DNA of 38,573 bases. Origin: Deltaproteobacteria bacterium (lineage in GTDB: Bacteria; Myxococcota_A; Polyangia; DRWM01; JAAZOP01). The notes under the pieces were generated by a model. The model saw only the letters and a list, made by a program, of their open reading frames with translations, searched no databases and was not told the origin of the DNA. Numbering within the stretch: position 1 is the first letter of the stretch; each line of letters opens with the position of its first letter. The position numbers were made by a program, and so were the translations under genes. Shown piece by piece: positions 6,231 through 38,573 of this stretch. Location: assembly GCA_016930215.1 (NCBI GenBank), contig JAFGHH010000292.1:1-38573 (forward strand), written 5' to 3'.

Positions 6231-7430
6231 CTACGAACGCGCGTCCAGCACCTTCGCAACGAGCGCCGCGGCGCGCAAGCCCGAGGCCAGCGCCCAGGCC
6301 AGGCCCGTCGCCCGCCCGTCCGGCGGCACCGCGAGCGCGCCGGCGAGCATCAGACCCGGCGCGGCGCCCGCGGGACGGAGCTCGTCATCGACGGCGATGC
6401 CGAGCGACCGGATCGCCGGCTCATCGAACAGTCGCGGCGGCAGGAAGGCGTCCGCGGCAGGGCCGTGGGGCGCCGACTGCTGCTCGAGCAGCGCCGTGCC
6501 CCACGCCAGCCGGCCCGCCGCGGGCTCCGCGAACAGGCGACCCTCGCGGCGCACGCCGCCCCCGGCCGCGCCGCCGGTGGCGACGATCGCCGTCCGGCCG
6601 GCGCCAAGCATGGTGCCGTCTTCCGCGAGGGCGACCCAGCGGTCGCCGCGACGTTCGAGCGTCCGGACGCGGCCGGCGACGGAGCCGGCACCGGCCCGTT
6701 CCATCGCGGAGCGCAGCGCCGCCGCCAGCTCGCGCCCGGCGCCCGACGTCCCGTAGGTCCCGAGCAGCCGCCCGGTCGGCACCTCGGCCGCCGCCGCGGC
6801 CGCCGCGGCGGTCGCCGGCGGCACGTACGACGGCAGCAGCGCCGCATCGACCTCCGCCTCGCGCACGGCGCGCGCCACCCCGGCCGCGAGGTCCCGCGCC
6901 AGGCCGGCGTCGGACGCGAGCAATCCGCGCAGCGTCCCCGCCGAGTGCAGCGCGAGGGCGTCGGGCACGGCGAGCGGCACGGCCAGCGGCACGAACCGCG
7001 GCGTGCCGCCGACCGCCTCCTCGAGCAGGGCGGCGAGGCCGGCGAGCGAGGGCGCGCCCGAGACGTCGGCCCCGAGAACGCCGACGCGCCGGAACGGCAG
7101 GCGTCCGAGGTCCAACGACGCCGCGGGCGCCGCCAGCGCCTCGACGAGCCGGCCCGCCATCGTCGCCAGCCGCCACGTCCCGCCGTCGGGCGCCGCGGTC
7201 ACCGCCTCCGGCACGACCGAGGCCAGCCAGTGCAACGCCGCGCCCGGCAGCCGCTCGTCGGGCTCGATAGCCCCGGTGGCGAACGCCGTGGCGCCGTCGC
7301 CGTCGGCCAGCACGAGCACGCTGCGGCCGGCCTCACGCAGACGCAGGGCGGCCGCGGCGCCCGCGAGGCCCGCGCCGACCACGAGCGCATCGCGCGTTTC
7401 TGACCCTGGCGCCGGCGCCTGCATCCCCAT
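6231..7430 (-). CDS. glpB: FAD-dependent oxidoreductase resembling anaerobic glycerol-3-phosphate dehydrogenase subunit B
   Basis: 399 aa. ALVVGAGLAGAAAALRLREAGRSVLVLADGDG is an N-terminal Rossmann FAD-binding motif. The rest follows the GlpB pattern: ATGAIEPDE after the first strand, DAALLPSYVPP mid-protein, AIVATGGAAGGGVRREGRLFAEPAAG and a C-terminal SLGIAVDDELRPAGAAPGLMLAGALAV. GlpB is normally part of a GlpABC complex feeding electrons to quinone; no glpA or glpC is visible here, so the partner is elsewhere or this is a stand-alone relative. It begins 13 bases after the protease gene and probably shares its transcript. The fold is clear; the glpB name is less certain. ATG at 7430 or 7424 are both possible. 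Confidence 0.7.
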   Translation of the reverse strand: MGMQAPAPGSETRDALVVGAGLAGAAAALRLREAGRSVLVLADGDGATAFATGAIEPDERLPGAALHWLASVVPEAVTAAPDGGTWRLATMAGRLVEALAAPAASLDLGRLPFRRVGVLGADVSGAPSLAGLAALLEEAVGGTPRFVPLAVPLAVPDALALHSAGTLRGLLASDAGLARDLAAGVARAVREAEVDAALLPSYVPPATAAAAAAAAEVPTGRLLGTYGTSGAGRELAAALRSAMERAGAGSVAGRVRTLERRGDRWVALAEDGTMLGAGRTAIVATGGAAGGGVRREGRLFAEPAAGRLAWGTALLEQQSAPHGPAADAFLPPRLFDEPAIRSLGIAVDDELRPAGAAPGLMLAGALAVPPDGRATGLAWALASGLRAAALVAKVLDARS

Positions 7431-7443
7431 CTCCGAGCCCCCG

Positions 7444-8652
7444 CTAGTGCAGCGTGTGGTAGCGGCCGTCGTGGTAGACGATCGGGCCCTTGCCCGCCTC
7501 GGGCTTGCCCCCCGGCGGCCCCTGCCCGTGCGTCGGGCGGATCCCGCCCCACGGCTTGGGGTCCGGATCGGGCCAGACCTTGGGCTCCGCCGGCGCCGCG
7601 GCGCGTTCGGCCGCGACCTCCTCGCGGTCCCACTCCGCGTACAGCGCCTGGCGGCGCCGGCGCTGCCGCAGGTAGGCCCAGGCCAGCAGGAACGAGATCA
7701 GGGCCCACAGCGTCGTGCCGCTCACCAGCGCCGGCAGCCAGCGGTACCAGACGCGAATGTCCTGCCGCCACTGTTCCTCGAGCCGCGCCACGGTGGTGCC
7801 GAACGCGTTCAGGAACGCCTGGCGGAACGGCGTGCCCTCCCCCACCTCGCGGAGCGCCTGCCGCAGCGCGGCGCGGCCGTGGCGGTCCACCAGGTACGAC
7901 ACCACGTCGAGGCTTTGCGCGTAGGCCAACGGCACCTGCTCCGGGTCCGACGGGTAGCCGCGCTCGATCGATTCCAGCGGGAGCAGGTGGTCGCGCATCG
8001 CGGCGTTGACCAGCTCCTCCTGCCGGCCCGCGTAGTCGTCGCCGGCCGCCCACAACGCGATCCCCTCGTCGAACCAGCGCGGGATCGGGCGGCCGCCGGT
8101 GATGCGGTCCACCACCAGGTGCGCCAGCTCGTGGCGCAGCACGGCGAACAGCGGGATGAACCGCCCGCTGCGCGGGCTGGTCAGCGACAGGACGATCAGG
8201 TCGTGGTCCCCGTACATCACGGCGGTGGCCCACCCGGGCGGGGGCGAGCCGGGCGGCGCGACGGCCGCCAGCTCCCGCGCGTTGGACACCACCCGCAGCT
8301 CGACGCTCGGCCCCGGGGCCGGCCCGAGCAGCCGCTGCAGGACGTCGAAGCCCCGCTCGGCCTCCAACGCCAGCCGACCGGCGTACGCCGTCAGCTCCGG
8401 CTCCGCCCGCACGACGAACCGCTCGGTGCGCACGACGAGAAACCCGTCGAGCGCCCCCGGGGAGAACGAGGGCGCGGGCGCGCCGGGCGTCGTCTCCACC
8501 GGCACCACGCGGGCCACGATCGGCGCCGGCTCGTCGACGAACGTCGCCAGGGCGACGTCGCCCCGCTCCTCCGGCGACAGGAACGGCAGCAGGACGAGCA
8601 GGGCCGCCCCGAGCCATCGCCACCGGAATCGTCCGCGAGTCCTCAATCGCAT
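7444..8652 (-). CDS. Membrane-anchored peptidase MA-like metalloprotease
   Basis: About 402 aa from the ATG at 8652, which has GGGACGGG upstream and starts directly into MRLRTRGRFRWRWLGAALLVLLPFL, a signal anchor; the ORF-track start at 8706 lacks this logic. The catalytic zinc motif is LRHELAHLVVDRITGGRPIPRWFDEGIALWAAG: HELAH followed by the distal Glu in DEG, the gluzincin arrangement of peptidase MA-like proteins. A second helix (LVSGTTLWALISFLLAWAYL) lies near residue 300, followed by a basic then Pro/Gly-rich cytoplasmic tail ending YHDGRYHTLH. The protease domain should face the periplasm. It lies between manB and the GlpB-like gene in one transcription unit. Confidence 0.85.
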   Translation of the reverse strand: MRLRTRGRFRWRWLGAALLVLLPFLSPEERGDVALATFVDEPAPIVARVVPVETTPGAPAPSFSPGALDGFLVVRTERFVVRAEPELTAYAGRLALEAERGFDVLQRLLGPAPGPSVELRVVSNARELAAVAPPGSPPPGWATAVMYGDHDLIVLSLTSPRSGRFIPLFAVLRHELAHLVVDRITGGRPIPRWFDEGIALWAAGDDYAGRQEELVNAAMRDHLLPLESIERGYPSDPEQVPLAYAQSLDVVSYLVDRHGRAALRQALREVGEGTPFRQAFLNAFGTTVARLEEQWRQDIRVWYRWLPALVSGTTLWALISFLLAWAYLRQRRRRQALYAEWDREEVAAERAAAPAEPKVWPDPDPKPWGGIRPTHGQGPPGGKPEAGKGPIVYHDGRYHTLH

Positions 8653-30266: not shown

Positions 30267-32165
30267 CTACGGGGTGCGGACGGTGGGGGAGCGGCGGATG
30301 ACCCAGCCCTGGCCGCTCGTCAGGCGGTCGCCGCCGGAGGCCTGCCAGTACATCAGGTTGTCGGCGTCGCCGTGCGCGGTGTCGGCCAGCGGGTCGCCGT
30401 CGTACGGCCAGGTGGTGTCGGGGTTCTCGGTCGGGTGGAACAGCCCCAGGTAGTGACCGACCTCGTGGCCGATCACCTGTCCGATGAACGCCGCGCCGGC
30501 GCCCCAGGCGCCGTCGAGGTTGACGAGCACGGCCGAGTGGGTCGTGCCGTGCACGGCCGGCGGACCGGGGATCCCGCCGGCGATCCCGAGCAGCCCCCAG
30601 CCGGCGAAGTCATGGATGAAGAACACGTTGACCGCGTGCTCGGTCCGTCCCGCCGACAACGCCATCAGCGGGCCGACCTCGCCGTTGTCGATGTCGTCGC
30701 CGTAGCTCACGGTGCTGTAGGTGGTGGCGGCCGAGCCGGTGATGTCGGTGTAGGTGTAGTCCCCGACCGTGATGCCGACCGTGGCGTAGATCCGCTCCCA
30801 TTCGCGCAAGGCGTTCTGGAACCGCGTCGAGGTGGGTGCGGAGCCGGCGTTGACCGTGCAGCCGACGAAGAACAGGTTGACCGACAGCCGCCCGGCCGTC
30901 GCGCCGCCCGGGTCGAGCTTGACGTAGCCGGTCCAATCGACCGTGTCGTCGAAGACGCTGGTCGCGTCGGGCGAGAACATCACCGGCGTCCAGAGGTAGC
31001 GGCCGGCGCGGAAGGTGACGCGGTTGGAGATCGGCACGTAGAAGCTGCCGGCCCGGGAGTCGGGCATGTGCCAGTTCGGCGTGTCGCGCCCCTCTACGAA
31101 ATCGTCGTAGGAGAAGACGTGCTCGTTGACCGGGTCGTAGACGTTGAGCACGCCGACGTAGGCCCCGCGGGTGCCCCGCTGGCGCGCGAACACCTGCAGC
31201 GAGACCGCGCCCGGCGGCATCCACAGCTCGGTGATCCGCCCCGTCGCGCCGGTGGACATGACCTGCGCGGCCAGCGGCACGGCGCGGATCTCCCCCGCGG
31301 TCACCGGCTCGAAACGGCAGATCGGGTAGGTCCCGGTGCCGTCGTCGAGCGGCAGGTCCTGGGTGCTGCAGGCGGTGAGCGCCGTGCAGTCCGCCGCCGC
31401 GCCGCACAGCCGCATGCAGACCCCGTCCGCGCACAGGTGCGACCGGCACTGCGTGTCGCCGCTGCAGGCCAACCCGTCCTGCAGCTGGTCGGAGGTCCAG
31501 TCGTAGCAGCCGTAGCCCACCCGATCCGTGCGGCCGTTGGCGTCCGAATCCTCCGCGAAGGGGACGCACGAGTAGCCGTAGTCGCAGGGGTCGGCCGGGG
31601 CGCAGCGGTCGGCGCAGACGCCGCCCAGCGCCGGCGGCAGGCACAGCCGCGACCGGCACTGGTCCGCCCGCGTGCACGGCGACCCGTTGGACAGGGGCCC
31701 GGTGTCCGCGTCGGCGTCCGCATCCGCGTCCGCATCGGCGTCGGCGTCCGCATCCGCGTCCGCCCCGTCCGGCGCGACTCCCTCGTCCGGCACGTCCTCC
31801 ACGTCCGCATCCGCGTCCGCCGGCGTCGGGCAGGCGGACGGCTCGAGCACGCACGGCACGCAGGCGCCGGCGGAGCCGCAACCCCATCCCTCGCGGCACT
31901 CGTCCGACGACCAGCACTGGTCGAAGCAGTAGATCTCGCCCCCCAGGTCCAGGCATTGCGAGCCGGAGGGGCAGGACCAGTCGTCGCCGCACCAGCGGGT
32001 GCAGAAGCCGCCCGGCCAGATGTCGCTCGGGAGCACGCAGTCGAGCTCGCAGTCCGAGGACCGTTCGCACGGATCCCCGACGGGCCGGCCGCCCGAGGGA
32101 TTCCCGTCGTCGTCGCATCCGACGGCGAGCAGCCCGAGCAGCGCGGTCCGCAGCCACCGACGCAT
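30267..32165 (-). CDS. Predicted lipoprotein with Cys-rich modules, DA-repeat linker and metzincin-like protease domain
   Basis: 632 aa from the ATG at 32165, which shares its A with the upstream stop (TGATG). MRRWLRTALLGLLAVGCDDDG is a lipoprotein signal with Cys near 17 and Asp after it. Cys-rich modules (CERSSDCELDC...CPSGSQCLDLGGEIYCFDQC) precede an (AD)n linker, then two more Cys modules and a beta-rich region (ITELWMPPGAVSLQVFARQRG). The C-terminal catalytic region has IGHEVGHYLGLFHP, the full HExxHxxGxxH metzincin zinc motif, followed by DNLMYW as the Met-turn. This is consistent with a pappalysin-like or related metzincin at the cell surface. It is translationally coupled to the CAP/MYXO-CTERM gene. 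Confidence 0.88.
   Translation of the reverse strand: MRRWLRTALLGLLAVGCDDDGNPSGGRPVGDPCERSSDCELDCVLPSDIWPGGFCTRWCGDDWSCPSGSQCLDLGGEIYCFDQCWSSDECREGWGCGSAGACVPCVLEPSACPTPADADADVEDVPDEGVAPDGADADADADADADADADADADTGPLSNGSPCTRADQCRSRLCLPPALGGVCADRCAPADPCDYGYSCVPFAEDSDANGRTDRVGYGCYDWTSDQLQDGLACSGDTQCRSHLCADGVCMRLCGAAADCTALTACSTQDLPLDDGTGTYPICRFEPVTAGEIRAVPLAAQVMSTGATGRITELWMPPGAVSLQVFARQRGTRGAYVGVLNVYDPVNEHVFSYDDFVEGRDTPNWHMPDSRAGSFYVPISNRVTFRAGRYLWTPVMFSPDATSVFDDTVDWTGYVKLDPGGATAGRLSVNLFFVGCTVNAGSAPTSTRFQNALREWERIYATVGITVGDYTYTDITGSAATTYSTVSYGDDIDNGEVGPLMALSAGRTEHAVNVFFIHDFAGWGLLGIAGGIPGPPAVHGTTHSAVLVNLDGAWGAGAAFIGQVIGHEVGHYLGLFHPTENPDTTWPYDGDPLADTAHGDADNLMYWQASGGDRLTSGQGWVIRRSPTVRTP
31711..31763 (-). 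repeat. In-frame 30-bp duplication in the ADADAD linker
   Basis: A 23-base exact match (31711-31733 and 31741-31763) recurs 30 bases apart inside a longer tract of GAC/GAT-GCN codons. All units are multiples of three, so copy changes would lengthen or shorten the linker without frameshift. Confidence 0.75.
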
Positions 32166-33370
32166 CAGCGACCTCCCTTCCGCGCCCGGCGACGCGACGC
32201 CGCCAGCGCGACGAGCAGCAGCGCCGCCGCGCCCACGACGCCCCGGCGGCGCCCGGACGACGCCACCGCGCAATCGCAGCCGTCGTCGCCGCCCCCGTCG
32301 TCGACGTTGCACGCGCCCTCGTCGGTCTGGCCGTCGCAGTCGTTGTCATGGCCGTCGCACAGGTCACGCTGCGGCAGCACGGCGCCGACGCACGGGCCCC
32401 ACGTGCCGTCGATGCACGACTGCGTGCCGAGCGTGCAGCGGCCGGCGGAGACCCCGCACTGCCGGTCCGGGGTCCCGACGGGGCACGGGCACCCGTCATC
32501 GACCACGCCGTCGCAGTCGTCGTCGTTGCCGTTGCACGCCTCGACGTCGGATACCGGCTCGCACTCGGGCCCGCAGACGCGGTTCTCGTCGACCACGGTG
32601 TCGCAGTCGTTGTCGCGCCCGTCGCACAGCTCGGTGGTGGGCACGCACGAGCCGCAGACGTCCTCGTCGGTGGCCCCGTCGCAGTCGTTGTCGTAGCCGT
32701 CGCAGATCTCGGTGCCGGCCGCCGGCACGTGGCACTCGTTCCACTGGCAGTGGTCGTCGCACTCCTGGATTCCGCTGCCGCAGGAGGGGGTGGTGCAGTC
32801 CCGGGTGGCCGCGAGGGCACAGGCACAACCGTCCTCGTCGAGGATGCCGCCGAAGTCGGTGGTCCAGTACCAGCCGTACGGCGACCCGGCGACGTAGGCG
32901 CGGCCGATGCCGATCGCCACGTAGTCCGCCGTGAGCATGTTGGCGTTGTGCCCGGGCGAGTGTCGCCAGCCGTCGAACGCCTCGTGGGCCGACTCCATCC
33001 CCGCCGCGATGTTCTCGCCCATGACCGTCGACCCGGCGCAGGCCGGCTCGTAGCCGCCCGCGCACATCCGGTCGAACGGGGTCCGGCCCTCGGGGTCGAC
33101 GTGGTCGAAGAAGCCGCGCTCCCCCATGTCGACCGAGAAGTCGTAGGCCGCCTGGTTGATCGTCGCCGACGACGCGAGCGCCCCCAGGTCGTTGGCCGCG
33201 CGGTACTCGTTGATCAACCGCAGGAACTCGGCTTCCTCGCGGTCGAGGTACCGGAGGCCGAACGACTCCCGCCCGTAGGTCCCCTCCTCGACCAGGCACG
33301 CCGCCGGCAGGAGCGCGACGGCCAGCACCAGCACGATCCCCCGCAGACCCGCGACGCGTCGAGACCTCAT
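32165..33370 (-). CDS. CAP/SCP-domain protein with MopE-type repeats and MYXO-CTERM-like tail
   Basis: 401 aa from the ATG at 33370. Signal LRGIVLVLAVALLPAACLVEEG ends in a possible lipobox. The CAP (YkwD-like) domain follows: FLRLINEYRAANDLGAL, GFFDHVDPEGRTPFDRM, GENIAAGM, WRHSPGHNANMLTADYVAIGIG and WYWTTDFGG. Then come four MopE-type repeats: CDGYDNDCDGATDE, CDGRDNDCDTVVDE, CNGNDDDCDGVVDD and CDGHDNDCDGQTDE, likely metal-binding. The C-terminus CDCAVASSGRRRGVVGAAALLLVALAASRRRARKGGR has Cys, a short membrane helix and an Arg cluster, the MYXO-CTERM sorting pattern. It is probably a surface protein cleaved and anchored through this tail. Having both a lipobox-like N-terminus and the C-terminal signal is unusual and may mean the N-terminal Cys is not lipidated. 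Confidence 0.88.
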   Translation of the reverse strand: MRSRRVAGLRGIVLVLAVALLPAACLVEEGTYGRESFGLRYLDREEAEFLRLINEYRAANDLGALASSATINQAAYDFSVDMGERGFFDHVDPEGRTPFDRMCAGGYEPACAGSTVMGENIAAGMESAHEAFDGWRHSPGHNANMLTADYVAIGIGRAYVAGSPYGWYWTTDFGGILDEDGCACALAATRDCTTPSCGSGIQECDDHCQWNECHVPAAGTEICDGYDNDCDGATDEDVCGSCVPTTELCDGRDNDCDTVVDENRVCGPECEPVSDVEACNGNDDDCDGVVDDGCPCPVGTPDRQCGVSAGRCTLGTQSCIDGTWGPCVGAVLPQRDLCDGHDNDCDGQTDEGACNVDDGGGDDGCDCAVASSGRRRGVVGAAALLLVALAASRRRARKGGR

Positions 33371-33423
33371 CGGCGCGACTCCCGCCGGCCCCCGGACCCC
33401 CGCCGGAAACCGCTCCCGGAAGG

Positions 33424-34569
33424 TTACTCCGCGCCTCCCGGAGTGTCCACCGTGCCCGCCGCACGGACCGCGCCGCCGTCCCGGGCGCGTGGTCGGGGCG
33501 CCGCCGCCTGCTCGCGGACCAGCGCCAGCAGCTCCTCCATCCGCTCCCGCTCCGCCGTCGGCAGCCCCTCCGCCGCACGGGCGTCCGCCGCCAAGCCCCG
33601 CTCGAGGTACTCGGTTGCCGCGACGTAGTCCCCGACCCACGCCGCCGCCAGCCCGGCCCCGAGCAGGGCCGGCACCTGCTCCGGGCCCGCCTCCAGCGCG
33701 TGCCGGAACACCTCCCGCGCCTCGTCCCACCGGTCGAGCTGCAGCAGCGCTGCGCCCAGCAGGCTCCAGGCGAAGCCGCCGAGGTCGGCCTGCGCCCCGA
33801 GCCGCAGGAACGGCTCGGACTCCGCCGCCCGCCCCTGCCGCAGCAGCACCCAACCCAGCGCGTACGCCGCCAGCGGCTGGTCCGGCCGCGCGGCCAGCGC
33901 CCGCGTCGCCCACTCGCTCGCGTCCTCGGGGCTGCCGCGCAGCGTGGCGATCCAGGCCAGCAGCGCCTGCACGCCCGGGTCGTCCGGGCTGGCCACGTCG
34001 AGCCGGAGCGCCTGCTCCCAGGCATCGTCGTCCCGGCCCGTCAGGCCGAGGGCCAGCACCAGGTTGTAGCGGGCGTCGAGCTGCCCGGGGTCGGTGCGCA
34101 GCGATTCCTCGAACGCGCCCACCGCCTCCTCCGGATCCCCCTGCCGGAGGCGGAGGTACCCGAGGTTGTTCCAGGCCTCCGCGAAGTCGGGGTTCAGCCG
34201 CAGCGCCTTGCGGGTCAACGCCTCCGCCTCGGCCAGCGCGCCGCGCCGCAACGCCACGACCGCCAGATTGTTGTACGGCTCGGAGAACCGGTCGTTGTAC
34301 TCGAGCGCCAGTCGGAACGCCGCGTCGGCCCCCGCGAGGTCGTTGGCGCGAAGCCGCAGGATGCCGGCGTCGTTGCTGGCCACCGCCCGCTCGTGCAACG
34401 AGGTCGTGGCCAGGCAGCCGAGGGCCGGCATCCCGAGCGCGACGACGGCCGCGGCCGCCGCCGCGACCCGCCGCCGGCGATTCCCGGTCGTCCTCCGCGC
34501 CGAGGTTCCGGCGCGACCGCCTCCTCGACCCGCGCCGTACATTCCCTGCTCCACCGAATTCCGTCGCAT
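33424..34569 (-). CDS. TPR-repeat lipoprotein
   Basis: 381 aa, ATG 34569 with GGGAGGTGGAGG just upstream. A long basic N-terminus precedes the signal (VAAAAAAVVALGMPALGCLATT, Cys near 52). About six to seven tetratricopeptide repeats follow, e.g. NDAGILRLRANDLAGADAAFRLALEYND, SEPYNNLAVVALRRGALAEAEALTRKALRLNPD, AEAWNNLGYLRLRQGDPEEAVGAFEESLRTDPG and LLGAALLQLDRWDEAREVFRHALEAGPE. The tail is Ala/Arg-rich. TPR lipoproteins in this phylum serve as scaffolds in envelope or motility complexes; no partner is identifiable. The 157 bases upstream (34570-34726) contain several GC-rich inverted repeats but no clear promoter. Confidence 0.88.
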   Translation of the reverse strand: MRRNSVEQGMYGAGRGGGRAGTSARRTTGNRRRRVAAAAAAVVALGMPALGCLATTSLHERAVASNDAGILRLRANDLAGADAAFRLALEYNDRFSEPYNNLAVVALRRGALAEAEALTRKALRLNPDFAEAWNNLGYLRLRQGDPEEAVGAFEESLRTDPGQLDARYNLVLALGLTGRDDDAWEQALRLDVASPDDPGVQALLAWIATLRGSPEDASEWATRALAARPDQPLAAYALGWVLLRQGRAAESEPFLRLGAQADLGGFAWSLLGAALLQLDRWDEAREVFRHALEAGPEQVPALLGAGLAAAWVGDYVAATEYLERGLAADARAAEGLPTAERERMEELLALVREQAAAPRPRARDGGAVRAAGTVDTPGGAE

Positions 34570-34726
34570 CCTCCACCTCCCGCCCGCGGCCGGTCGGCCC
34601 GCGGCGGCCCCTGCATCGCGCCCGGCGGCCCGGGTGTTGCGCGAGGAATCGGGCGACGTGGACGAATCCCCACGGAACCGCCCGAACCTCGGCCGGGCGC
34701 ACCCCCGAACGCGGTGCGGGGACGGC

Positions 34727-36913
34727 TCAGGGTTCGAGGCCGAGGTAGGGTCGGGCCTGCTTGACGACGATCCGGTCGTCCGCGGTCACCTCGACCTCGA
34801 GGTCCAGCCGGAGGTCGGCCGGCACGGGATAGACGTGGGCGGCGAAGTGGTCGTGCACGAGGAACAGCAGGCCGGACAACGTCTCCAGCTCGGGGTCGCT
34901 CCACAACCGCGCGCCGTCGGGGGACAGCGAGCTGGGAACCAGCAGGCGGACGTCGGCCGCTCCGGCGGCGCTCCGGCGGAGGGTCAGGGTCTCGGCGACC
35001 GCCGTCGGGTCGCTCGGCCGCACGACGCCGACCTCGCCGAGCTGCGTGACGATGCGGTACAGCGGGTCCCCCGCGTCCGGGCGGAGGTTGGTGATCGCGA
35101 CCGCCTCCTGCCGTTCCATCACGAACGCCGCCTGGACGGCGAGGCCCATGAACACCTGCGCGTGGTCGATGCCGTAGTACTCCCGCTCGTCGAAGGCCCG
35201 CAGGTTCCACAGGCTCCGCCAGACCTTGCGCACGGCGTCGAAGACGGTCTTCTCCTCGATCAGGTCCTGCTCGAGGTCGGCGACGAGGTCGGCCAGCCAC
35301 CAGCGCTCGGGATGCGCCGCCTGCTCGGTCCGCCGGCGGGCCAGCTCGGCCTCGAGATGCGCGCGGTGCGCGGCGGAAAGGCAGCGCGAGGGGCCGAACG
35401 CGTCGCCGTCGAGGTCGTCGGCGAGGCAGCCGGTGCGCGAGTCGTACAGGCCGGCGCCGCTGAACGCCTCGAGGTCCTCGGCGTTGGTGCTCGACCGGAA
35501 ACGCACGTACGTCGCGTCGGCGCCGAACACCTCCCGCAGCCGCGTCGTCAGCGTCTCGAAGAACCCGGGCGCGAAGGCGCCGTCCCGGATCCGGTCGCGC
35601 AGGTCGTCCAGCCTCGCGCCGCGGTACGCGCGGTCGGTGTAGACGCGCGGGTCGGCGAGCAGCGCCGCGATTCCCGCGTCGAGGCCGTTGTGCGCGATGA
35701 ATTCGACGTACGCGCGGAACGGGACGCCGAACCCTTCGACGCGGTGCTCCGGCGGCAGGATCCCGTGCAGCTCGCCGAGGTTGGCGGCCTTGGCGCCGTA
35801 GGCGGGCGCGTCGGTGGAATCGAGCGCGTCGAAGCCCGCGAACGCGGTCACGGTCAGGTCGCTGCGCACGGGGCCGACCGTCGGCCGGTGCTCCTCCCAC
35901 CAGCGCTCCGCATCCGCCAGACTCGCCGCCTCGAGCGCCAGCGAGGACTCGCCGGTCACGAGGTGCACGAGCCGGTCGGCGAGCGCCGCAATGCGGGAGT
36001 CCTCGTAGGCGCCGGCGAGCATCGCGTTCGGGAGCCCCTTCTCCCGCAGGCGCAGGTTGGCGTGGGAATGCACGTTCTGCGGGAGCGCGGTGAGCATGCC
36101 GCCGAGCGTCGTGACGTCGGTCGGGGCGAGCTCCAGCACCAGGATGTCGCGCGGACCGTACTCCTCCGGCGGGCGGGCCCCGCGCGGCGTCACGCTCAGG
36201 TAGCCGTAGCTCTCCCCCACGCTGTACGCCTCGTAGTCGCGTTCGATCAGCTCGACGGGAAACCGCACGGCCACGCCCCGCGCGTTCAGCTCGGGCACCA
36301 GCGGGCGCACGTGGTCCTCCTGCTCCGCCCCGGAGGGCACGAGAACCAGCTCGCTCGCGAGCAGCGGAGCGCAGGCCTTGAGCCGCCGGTCGACTTCGAC
36401 CAGCTCCTCGACCTCGAGGTTCTCGTCGGGTCCCCGCTCCTGGTACACGGTGTAGACCGCGATCCCCGGCCGGCCGCTGAGCGGATGCGTGATGCGCGCG
36501 TAGCGTTTCAGCTCGCCGCCCCACCAGCGCCGCGTGGCGCGGCGCAGGACGAGGTCGGTGTACGCGTCCATCCCCAGCTCGCCGAACTCGTCCGGGAACA
36601 CCGCCCGCAGGAACTGGATGTGGTAGGGGAAGCGCCGCGTGTTCTGGAACAGGCACTCCTGCGGCAACGGCCGCTCCCGGCCATCGACCACCGCCAGGTA
36701 CTTCACCTCGCGGCCCTCGGCCTCCAGGCCCGCATAGTCGGACTCGACTTCGATCCGCTCGAGGTAATCGGGGCCGGTGTCCGGCACATCGCCGGCATCG
36801 TCCGGAGCGGCGTCGTCCGGGCCGACCTCCAGTCCGACATCCGGCTCGCCTCCTCCGCCGCCGCAGGCCGCGAGGCACAGGACGAGCCACGGGAGCCGGC
36901 GCGCTTCAGCCAC
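34727..36913 (-). CDS. Predicted lipoprotein with phosphohistidine-like and PEP/pyruvate (PPDK-type) ATP-grasp domains
   Basis: 728 aa from a GTG at 36913 that overlaps the upstream stop by eight bases. LVLCLAACGGGGG is a lipobox (Cys 17), then an Asp/Ala/Pro linker. Region 65-240 has VKYLAVVDGRERPLPQECLFQNTRRFPYHIQFL, as in uncharacterised PEP/pyruvate-binding exported proteins. Region 254-320 (RDILVLELAPTDVTTLGGMLTALPQNVHSHANLRLREKGLPNAML) resembles the swivelling phosphohistidine domain of dikinases, with His 284 in SHANLRLRE. The ATP-grasp domain starts near 372 (YGAKAANLGELHGILP) and has VRFRSSTNAEDLEAFSGAGLYDS, RKVWRSLWNLRAFDEREYYGIDHAQVFMGLAVQ and a final VKQARPYLG. The order matches glucan water dikinase. 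Substrate and phosphate donor outside the cytoplasm are unclear. Confidence 0.85.
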   Translation of the reverse strand: MAEARRLPWLVLCLAACGGGGGEPDVGLEVGPDDAAPDDAGDVPDTGPDYLERIEVESDYAGLEAEGREVKYLAVVDGRERPLPQECLFQNTRRFPYHIQFLRAVFPDEFGELGMDAYTDLVLRRATRRWWGGELKRYARITHPLSGRPGIAVYTVYQERGPDENLEVEELVEVDRRLKACAPLLASELVLVPSGAEQEDHVRPLVPELNARGVAVRFPVELIERDYEAYSVGESYGYLSVTPRGARPPEEYGPRDILVLELAPTDVTTLGGMLTALPQNVHSHANLRLREKGLPNAMLAGAYEDSRIAALADRLVHLVTGESSLALEAASLADAERWWEEHRPTVGPVRSDLTVTAFAGFDALDSTDAPAYGAKAANLGELHGILPPEHRVEGFGVPFRAYVEFIAHNGLDAGIAALLADPRVYTDRAYRGARLDDLRDRIRDGAFAPGFFETLTTRLREVFGADATYVRFRSSTNAEDLEAFSGAGLYDSRTGCLADDLDGDAFGPSRCLSAAHRAHLEAELARRRTEQAAHPERWWLADLVADLEQDLIEEKTVFDAVRKVWRSLWNLRAFDEREYYGIDHAQVFMGLAVQAAFVMERQEAVAITNLRPDAGDPLYRIVTQLGEVGVVRPSDPTAVAETLTLRRSAAGAADVRLLVPSSLSPDGARLWSDPELETLSGLLFLVHDHFAAHVYPVPADLRLDLEVEVTADDRIVVKQARPYLGLEP

Positions 36914-37559
36914 CGCCGCCGCGCATCAGGCAATGGTTCGGGTCGACCGTCGGGATCGAACGGCAGTCGGTGAACGTCAACGGGAGCTCCGCTTCGCCAT
37001 CGATCGAGAGCGTGTCGGTCCACGCCGCCGTGGTCCCCGAGAAGTCGTAGACCATGCGCACGACGTAGGCGTGCGTGCCGGTCGCCTCGGCCCGCTCGTT
37101 CCAGTTGTGATGGCCGAAGTCGTAGGCGAGCGCGCCCGGGTCGGTCACGCAATCCACCGTGCCGTCCCGCTCGACGCCGAAGCGTACCAGGTCGTAGGGC
37201 AGCGTTTCGCCGACGAAGCTGCGCTCCCCGACCTCGCGCGCGAGCCGCACCCGCACCGCGCCCCCCTCCGCCTCGAAGTCCAGCAGGTTCACCGTCCGCG
37301 TGGCGACCCGGGGCGCCAGCCCGACGAAGCAGTCGTCCAGCGAGGCGGGGAGGTCGCCGTCGCCGTCGTCCGCCACGTCGACACCGGCCTCGTCGTCGGC
37401 GGCGTCCGCCGCATCCACTGCCGCCTCGACGTCGGCGACATCGGCGACGTCTGCGTCCTCGGCGTCCTCAGGGGCGACGGCATCCGTACCGGCGTCCGGC
37501 GAGGCCGGGTCTCCGGTATCGCAGCCGAGCAACAGGAGCAGCAGCGCCAGCGCACGCAT
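36906..37559 (-). CDS. Small predicted lipoprotein with acidic linker, partner of the dikinase-like gene
   Basis: 217 aa from the ATG at 37559, which has AGGAGG at good spacing; the ORF-track GTG at 37577 would place that site inside the gene. MRALALLLLLLGCDTGD is a short lipoprotein signal with Asp after the Cys. A linker of about 55 residues of Asp, Ala, Val and Glu follows. The remaining 140 residues (NLLDFEAEGGAVRVRLAREVG ... DLVRFGVERDGTVDCVTDPGALAYDFGHHNWNERAEATGTHAYVVRMVYDF ... DCRSIPTVDPNHC) look like a beta-rich domain with four Cys; no family is recognised. Its stop overlaps the next start by eight bases, so it is translated together with the dikinase-like lipoprotein. Confidence 0.85.
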   Translation of the reverse strand: MRALALLLLLLGCDTGDPASPDAGTDAVAPEDAEDADVADVADVEAAVDAADAADDEAGVDVADDGDGDLPASLDDCFVGLAPRVATRTVNLLDFEAEGGAVRVRLAREVGERSFVGETLPYDLVRFGVERDGTVDCVTDPGALAYDFGHHNWNERAEATGTHAYVVRMVYDFSGTTAAWTDTLSIDGEAELPLTFTDCRSIPTVDPNHCLMRGGGG

Positions 37560-37577
37560 GCCGGACCTCCTTCGCAC

Positions 37578-38573
37578 CTACGGTCGCTCCAGGGTATGGG
37601 AGACGACGGTCAGCTCCCGGACCCGCGCCAGCGCGCAGTCGATGACGAAGGCCTGGTCCCGCGCGTAGTCGTCCCAGGGTTCGAGGCCGATCACCTCCAG
37701 GCCGCAGGCATCCCCGATCGGCGAGTCGAAGAACACCGCGAAGTCGCGCTCGAAGTGGTGATGCGCCGGGTTGTAGACCAGGCGCCAGTAGTCGCGCTGG
37801 TCGAAATCGACGCCGCCGAGACGGCCCCAGGCGCGGACGAACGCGCCCGGCTCGGTGCTCGCCGGGCTCATCCCGATCCGCAACTCGAAGTGCACCTCGG
37901 CGCCCGCCTCGAGGACCAGGTGATGGAGCTGCGCCGGAGTGCCCTCGAAGGTGCACGAGTCGAACGAGCGCGACCCGTCCCCCCAGCACTCGCCGCCGCC
38001 GGGACAGTAGTTGAACTGGAAGCTCGAGGCATCGCCGAACGGCTCGTTCGCCGTACCGTCCAACACCATCGGCGGCGGTGTCCCGGCGTAGACCGGGTTG
38101 AGGGAGCCTTCGACGCGCCCGTCGGTGAGCGCAACGACGATGTTGTTGCGGTCGTAGTTCGACCCGCCGTAGCTGCTCGTCGAGTGCGTGACCGTGCCGG
38201 TGCCCGTCGTCGTCGGAGGCGAGCCGTCGCCGAAGTCGAGGCAGAGCGGCAGGAAGAAGGGCGCCTCGCCGGCCGTCGTCGGCAGGCGGTAGGAGCCGGG
38301 GACGACGCGCAGCATCGCCTTCGACTCGTACTCCTCCAGCAGCGTGCGGCTCTCGTTGAACCTGCCGCAGTAGACGGCGCCATCCGTCACGCGTAGCTCG
38401 AGCGTCCAGCCCGGGTCGCCGACGAACTCCGACGCGCTCGGGCAGTGGGCCCATGGGTCCGGTTCCGTCGAATCGGCCTCGGCGTCCACCGAGTCCTCCA
38501 CGTCGGCGTCGGCGTCCGCACCCACATCCGCGTCGGCGTCCGCACCCACATCCGCGTCGGCGTCCGCACCCAC
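37578..38573 (-). CDS. Secreted or lipoprotein with DA-repeat linker, 5' end cut by window edge
   Basis: At least 331 codons; the listed start is only the first in-frame GTG at the edge and lies inside the linker, so the true start and signal peptide are outside the window. The visible part begins with three GADADADV units, then a domain with PWAHCPSASEFVGDPGWTLELRVTDGAVYCGRFNESRTLLEEYESKAMLRVVPGSYRLP, FFLPLCLDFGDG, FQFNYCPGGGECWGDGSRSFDSCTFEGTP and HHLVLEAGAEVHFELRIGMSP. Cys pairs suggest disulfides. No known family is recognised. It ends 18 bases before the next start, so it belongs to the same operon as the small lipoprotein and the dikinase-like gene. Confidence 0.85.
   Translation of the reverse strand: MGADADADVGADADADVGADADADVEDSVDAEADSTEPDPWAHCPSASEFVGDPGWTLELRVTDGAVYCGRFNESRTLLEEYESKAMLRVVPGSYRLPTTAGEAPFFLPLCLDFGDGSPPTTTGTGTVTHSTSSYGGSNYDRNNIVVALTDGRVEGSLNPVYAGTPPPMVLDGTANEPFGDASSFQFNYCPGGGECWGDGSRSFDSCTFEGTPAQLHHLVLEAGAEVHFELRIGMSPASTEPGAFVRAWGRLGGVDFDQRDYWRLVYNPAHHHFERDFAVFFDSPIGDACGLEVIGLEPWDDYARDQAFVIDCALARVRELTVVSHTLERP
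38502..38573 (-). repeat. 24-bp in-frame tandem repeat coding GADADADV
   Basis: Minus-strand GTGGGTGCGGACGCCGACGC plus GGAT occurs in two exact copies and a third with two changes, running to the window edge; more copies may lie beyond. It encodes the acidic linker of the truncated protein. Confidence 0.8.

Follow-up and report, generated by a model that had tools for sequence, protein, structure and literature searches.

The gene described here appears to encode a lipid-anchored, histidine-dependent dikinase-type phosphotransferase which would act outside the cytoplasm together with partner proteins; catalysis, donor and acceptor are inferred, and we assign this reading a probability of roughly one half. 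The gene is the last of a tightly packed set of three on the minus strand, with two partners that look secreted at 36906–38573 of the window (the whole 38,573-nt stretch that was analyzed). In its product a lipobox with linker is followed by a new N-terminal domain, then by a phosphohistidine swivel domain and finally by a PPDK-type ATP-grasp domain, four parts in all (Table 1); as judged from domain content and key residues, the protein belongs to the dikinase superfamily. The known dikinases of this superfamily reside in the cytoplasm and in plastids, and the lineage predicted here to be exported occurs in at least eight phyla. If the reading is correct, ATP-dependent phosphorylation would take place at bacterial surfaces by a kind of enzyme unknown there. 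New here is the three-gene set, whose partners adjoin the dikinase in certain phyla and are joined to it in others; the first-pass annotation had mentioned neither the two partner genes nor the fusions. A literature search, mostly without subscription papers, found no paper on an exported PPDK_N lipoprotein.

Table 1. Features of the three-gene set (positions in the window) and loci with related fusions.
Feature	Position or loci	Strand	Basis
Exported dikinase-like lipoprotein gene (predicted)	34727..36913	minus	open frame, 728 aa, GTG start
Lipobox Cys17 (LAAC), followed by D/P/G-rich linker	36863..36865	minus	aligned Cys in homologues; upstream in-frame stop
N-terminal domain, residues about 58–225, holding His98 and Arg128	36239..36742	minus	conservation; pLDDT 94 model
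Phosphohistidine swivel domain, residues 226–345	35879..36238	minus	profile alignment, sub-threshold Pfam, AlphaFold2 and Foldseek
His284 in SHANLRLRE, predicted phosphohistidine	36062..36064	minus	95/95 homologues; aligned with PEP synthase catalytic His
PPDK-type ATP-grasp domain, residues 365–722	34748..35821	minus	PF01326 and Foldseek 5hv6
Lys375, equivalent of Lys22 of RPH and PPDK	35789..35791	minus	invariance and alignment
RSSTNAEDL motif, residues 473–481, Arg473 equivalent to RPH Arg117	35471..35497	minus	conservation and alignment
Insert with Cys496 and Cys511, predicted disulphide	35381..35428	minus	strict co-occurrence in homologues
QARP motif, residues 719–722, Gln719 and Arg721	34748..34759	minus	both conserved 87/87
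Partner 1, small lipoprotein with HHNWNE motif	36906..37577	minus	lipobox; relatives beside dikinase in L052, L054, L042
Partner 2, c2 family protein, N-terminus cut by contig end	37578..38573	minus	c2 relatives beside or fused to dikinases
Dikinases with c2-matching tails	L051, L111, L077, L049, L028, L076, L093, L048, L090, L045, L062, L057

A plus-strand reading of 34727–36913 was rejected as a gene, the open coding frame lying on the minus strand. Since the GTG is the only usable start, being preceded within a few codons by an in-frame TGA, the LAAC17 lipobox cannot be an artefact of a wrongly chosen start. The GTG overlaps the stop codon of the preceding gene by 8 bases, and a promoter and terminator scan of the three-gene set found nothing. 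With a short signal peptide and a lipobox cysteine at its true start, the protein qualifies as a bacterial lipoprotein, as the first-pass annotation had claimed; within a first set of 32 homologues the cysteine is aligned in 31, and the remaining sequence is truncated at a contig end. The residue numbers of that annotation (LAAC17, His284 in SHANLRLRE, RSSTNAEDL at 473–481 and QARP at 719–722) proved exact.

A simple rule applied to 95 homologues returned 55 with a lipobox, 27 with a signal-peptide-like stretch, 6 truncated sequences and 7 misses; at least 82 of the 89 untruncated homologues start with one or the other signal, and at least four of the seven missed have a signal-like start by eye. 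Members from other phyla are fused to FG-GAP repeats, a weak dockerin, CarboxypepD_reg, Por_Secre_tail (T9SS-type) or Lcl_C modules. Judged by their N-termini, nearly all untruncated members look exported, and a position at the surface or in the periplasm can be inferred from the signals and fusions, giving family-wide support to the extracytoplasmic location proposed earlier for the single protein. It is scarcely credible that we are dealing with a cytoplasmic PEP-synthase-like enzyme bearing a fortuitous lipobox: its characterized relatives are indeed cytoplasmic or plastidic, but the start is fixed, the lipobox cysteine recurs in the homologues at the frequency given above, and the extracellular fusion modules, paired cysteines and exported neighbors all speak against it.

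The family is widespread, with a match in 70 of the 189 Myxococcota genomes sampled. A search of genome contigs with the single protein as query gave no match; an alignment-based genome scan yielded at least 564 dikinase-like loci, of which the best 80 belong, as labelled in the records, to Myxococcota, Omnitrophota, Planctomycetota, Verrucomicrobiota, Bacteroidota, Fibrobacterota, Bdellovibrionota and Chloroflexota. His284, Lys375 and Arg473 are invariant in 95/95 distinct homologues from at least eight phyla, while Glu479, Asp480 and Ser492 are each found in 94/94, Gln719 and Arg721 each in 87/87 and Glu706 in 86/88. The free variation of His284 and the ATP-site residues that would have refuted the earlier reading is therefore absent. 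The invariance of Arg473 and its neighbors is partly selected, because the pattern used to scan for 80 of the loci, R[FL]RSS[ST]N[AVS]ED, fixed residues 471–480. His284, Lys375, Glu706, Gln719, Arg721 and His98 lie outside this pattern, and their conservation was not pre-selected.

The PPDK-type ATP-grasp domain, likewise anticipated by the first-pass annotation, is confirmed by a Pfam match to PF01326 (PPDK_N) at residues 372–722 (1.3e-17, 64.6 bits against a cut-off of 27) and by its predicted structure. The AlphaFold2 model (29 homologues; pLDDT 90, pTM 0.78) finds rifampin phosphotransferase (RPH), HpeI, PEP synthase and PPDK as its top Foldseek matches in the PDB, and the isolated RPH ATP-grasp domain (5hv6) is covered at TM 0.76 by target. 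In a profile alignment, Lys375, Arg473, Ser492 and Glu706 coincide with RPH Lys22, Arg117, Thr136 and Glu297. Lys22Ala leaves RPH inactive, Arg117Ala and Thr136Val each prevent the phosphate from reaching the drug, and Glu297Ala is tolerated (PMC4844700); all RPH nucleotide-site positions tested by mutation are retained or conservatively substituted in the family. The equivalents of Lys22, Arg117 and Glu297, Thr136 in the form of Ser, and the Gln and Arg of the QxRP motif together satisfy what defines the ATP-grasp domain of the superfamily. A viral fold search with the lipoprotein returned general ATP-grasp and dikinase matches only, and PHROGs gave no match.

The same swivel chemistry might be fed by a different donor in place of ATP, for instance pyrophosphate, polyphosphate or some other extracellular nucleotide. 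Such a donor would suit a location outside the cytoplasm, the presence of Ser492 where RPH has a Thr in contact with the alpha-phosphate, and the lysines typical of the family at positions 708 (Glu in the 728-residue protein) and 718; it is nevertheless unlikely given that every mutated position of the RPH ATP site is kept or conservatively replaced. Quite unlikely, too, is an ATP-dependent ligase or condensing enzyme of the PigC/RedH type, for which phosphorylation would merely activate a group that is then joined. PigC and RedH share the ATP-grasp domain and are not plain kinases, and weak NCBIfam similarity to both is seen, but these matches lie far below cut-off and are weaker than those to PEP synthase, and recurring biosynthetic neighbors are lacking at the dikinase-like loci.

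The swivel domain is less readily recognized by sequence, since the region gives no significant Pfam match in the 728-residue protein alone. A family profile aligns it to three PEP synthase swivel domains, with the SH placed on their catalytic His, at weak scores. PF22973 (GWD1_pHisD) is hit by 27 of 88 homologues, at 5.9e-5 in the best case and below cut-off where scores are shown, and not by the protein itself, whereas PF00391 matches none of the 88 scanned; used as a whole-genome query, PF22973 gave three sub-threshold matches and none above cut-off, being too insensitive. The AlphaFold2 model of residues 58–352 (88 homologues; pLDDT 94, pTM 0.88) has its best Foldseek matches in the swivel domains of PPDK and RPH (for RPH, rmsd 3.6 over 112 columns, probability 1.00), and also matches two pyruvate kinases with an extra C-terminal domain, aconitase X and UPF0107, all of which, like PPDK and RPH, we take to contain swivel-type folds. 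Residues 240–345, for which a swivel fold had been postulated, are thus predicted by AlphaFold2 and Foldseek to form one, and the invariant catalytic-type histidine on a swivel domain that marks the dikinase superfamily is supported by conservation (95/95), fold and alignment alike.

For the N-terminal domain no convincing solved relative was found, Foldseek returning only weak matches outside the swivel part. His98 is kept in 92/92 homologues and Arg128 in 90/92. Cys496 and Cys511 of the insert are both present in 53 homologues, both absent in 42 and never found singly, a strict pairing as expected of a disulphide, which is predicted here and would fit an oxidizing compartment.

Clustering the neighbors of dikinase loci revealed recurring families. 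Partner 1 likely starts at the ATG at 37559, behind GGAGG. In the case of partner 2 the contig ends before any signal peptide, and its c2 relatives are lipoproteins. The c2 family adjoins the dikinase-like gene in about ten loci, and does so in many Myxococcota; the core of c2 is also recognizable in the C-terminal tails of other dikinases (domain E 1e-21 to 1e-5, calculated against a small custom database), such fusions occurring in Omnitrophota, Planctomycetota, Verrucomicrobiota, Chloroflexota (Ardenticatenales) and a few others. A single His, within YW.LVY....H(H/N), is invariant in 23/23 c2 domains, and several fused c2 domains carry HHNWNE or RHNWNE at this position. HHNW or HHNF proteins flank the close relatives L039, L040 and L042 and also lie near the dikinase in L052 and L054; these motif counts rest on pattern matches, and a three-row HHNW alignment, too thin a model, brought up no further members at 1e-5 in the other Myxococcota genomes. 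In another sublineage c2 is replaced beside the dikinases by the Cys-rich c1 family; a merger of c1 and c2 into a single family was rejected (hhalign probability 0.7%). The c2 family accompanies the subtype with the Cys insert (20/20 typed), and c1 mostly the subtype without it (6/7 typed). None of the partner families matched a solved structure.

Overall, 37 of 81 loci have a c2, c1 or HHNW partner, adjacent or fused, a count that leaves out the HHNF gene of L042; 44 of the 81 have no recognized partner, some because contigs end. When 178 whole genomes were searched with c2, the core of the domain was matched 11 times. In five cases (G118, G000, G147, G084 and G003) a dikinase stands next to the c2 sequence or is joined to it, in one (G086, L152) c2 is fused to a dikinase N-terminal domain that comes without a kinase core, and one match sits at a contig end. 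For the remaining four, no dikinase appeared in the region inspected, which covered about 7 to 9 kb on most sides, one of the four lying near a contig end. Because of these four genomes, the link between c2 and dikinase is strong and not obligate. Matches limited to the Asp/Ala-rich linker (profile positions about 1–90) reflect composition and were discarded. The L152 lipoprotein (6437–8239) combines the dikinase N-terminal domain, with His98 and Arg128 kept, and c2, lacks both swivel and ATP-grasp domains, and is encoded divergently from a neighboring c1 gene. On sequence grounds, this argues for joint action of the N-terminal domain and c2, which may form the acceptor side.

The source genome holds a second dikinase-like paralogue (L119, contig C296), whose open frame spans 1879 aa and precedes two c1 genes in tandem. 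A further paralogue is found there in L122 (C28). In L061, L082 and L086, small lipoproteins which cluster together adjoin the dikinase, the L086 copy carrying a lamin-tail (LTD) domain.

Export signals, domain content and order, residue invariance and the recurring partners and fusions are direct observations on the family. The most likely mechanism is a two-step one with a swivelling domain, which remains an inference, as does the role of the N-terminal domain and partner in presenting or being the acceptor. The ATP-grasp domain would bind ATP via Lys375, Arg473, Ser492, Glu706, Gln719 and Arg721; His284 on the swivel domain would then take the beta-phosphate, with release of AMP and Pi, whereupon the swivel domain would rotate towards an acceptor that the N-terminal domain (His98, Arg128), the c2/HHNW partners or both would hold. 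ATP might come from lysed or prey cells or from export, both of which are guesses. Against an extracytoplasmic dikinase stands that ATP is not expected in the periplasm or outside the cell, and activity, nucleotide binding and acceptor are not known. This shortage of ATP would be no obstacle if the core were catalytically dead and merely bound nucleotides or surface polymers or acted as a scaffold for them, and L152, where the N-terminal domain and c2 occur without a kinase core, indicates that those parts have a role of their own. A dead enzyme is doubtful all the same, as it would not be expected to hold its His and its triphosphate residues constant across eight or more phyla. ATP-using phosphotransfer outside the cytoplasm is known from the secreted kinases CotH, Fam20C and VLK, whose fold is unrelated and which do not use phosphohistidine. 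For the phosphotransferase proposed here, the adjacent small secreted partners suggest a phosphate-transfer system outside the cell interior, so far unstudied. A more specific version, possible but tentative, is a widespread extracytoplasmic relay in which the exported dikinase would make phosphohistidine from extracellular ATP and hand the phosphate to its cognate secreted partner (c2/HHNW or c1) or to a partner-held surface polymer.

Among characterized dikinases, GWD has its swivel His domain ahead of the ATP-grasp domain, and the lipoprotein shares this order with GWD/PWD. The family's best Pfam hint for the swivel, though sub-threshold, is likewise the GWD domain PF22973, and a single conserved catalytic-type His is common to both, that of potato GWD being His992 (PMC12892837). 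Unlike GWD/PWD, the present protein is a predicted exported bacterial lipoprotein with a new N-terminal domain, an invariant His98 and partner lipoproteins; no Pfam match to a starch-binding module (CBM45 or CBM53) was found in it or in the homologues scanned, and no experimental GWD structure is available for comparison (PMC12892837). The earlier comparison with GWD stands for domain order and the nearest swivel family and not for function: the protein is GWD-like in order but, with no glucan module or other link to glucan and with swivel scores below cut-off, has not been shown to be a GWD.

With RPH, HpeHI, CreHI and PpsAB the protein shares an ATP-grasp domain and a swivel His without a PEP/pyruvate barrel, and with RPH also the positions of K22, R117, T136 (as S) and E297. 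Those enzymes are cytoplasmic, however, and relative to RPH the domain order is reversed. Order and length exclude the rifampin-binding domain that RPH carries between its ATP-grasp and His domains, and without a drug domain an RPH identity was rejected; NF041857 scores 31.6 bits against a cut-off of 999. PEP synthase and PPDK have homologous ATP-grasp and swivel domains in a different order, and a PEP synthase identity was rejected since the PEP/pyruvate-binding TIM barrel gave no match, the 728-residue protein ending at its ATP-grasp domain. Because the ATP-grasp and swivel domains of HpeHI (PMC12167813) and RPH (PMC4844700) serve small molecules via separate substrate domains, the acceptor of the family cannot be read from its core; by analogy, the N-terminal domain and partners may be where to look for it.

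Downstream of the dikinase, an ORF on the minus strand (32165–34702) carries a CAP domain and MopE-type metal-binding motifs, and a TPR protein (33424–34569) overlaps it in another frame. The dikinase family is also present in L060, a record labelled as a Bifidobacterium breve MAG; this label is probably wrong (cf. contig C19 of the Myxococcota genome G097).
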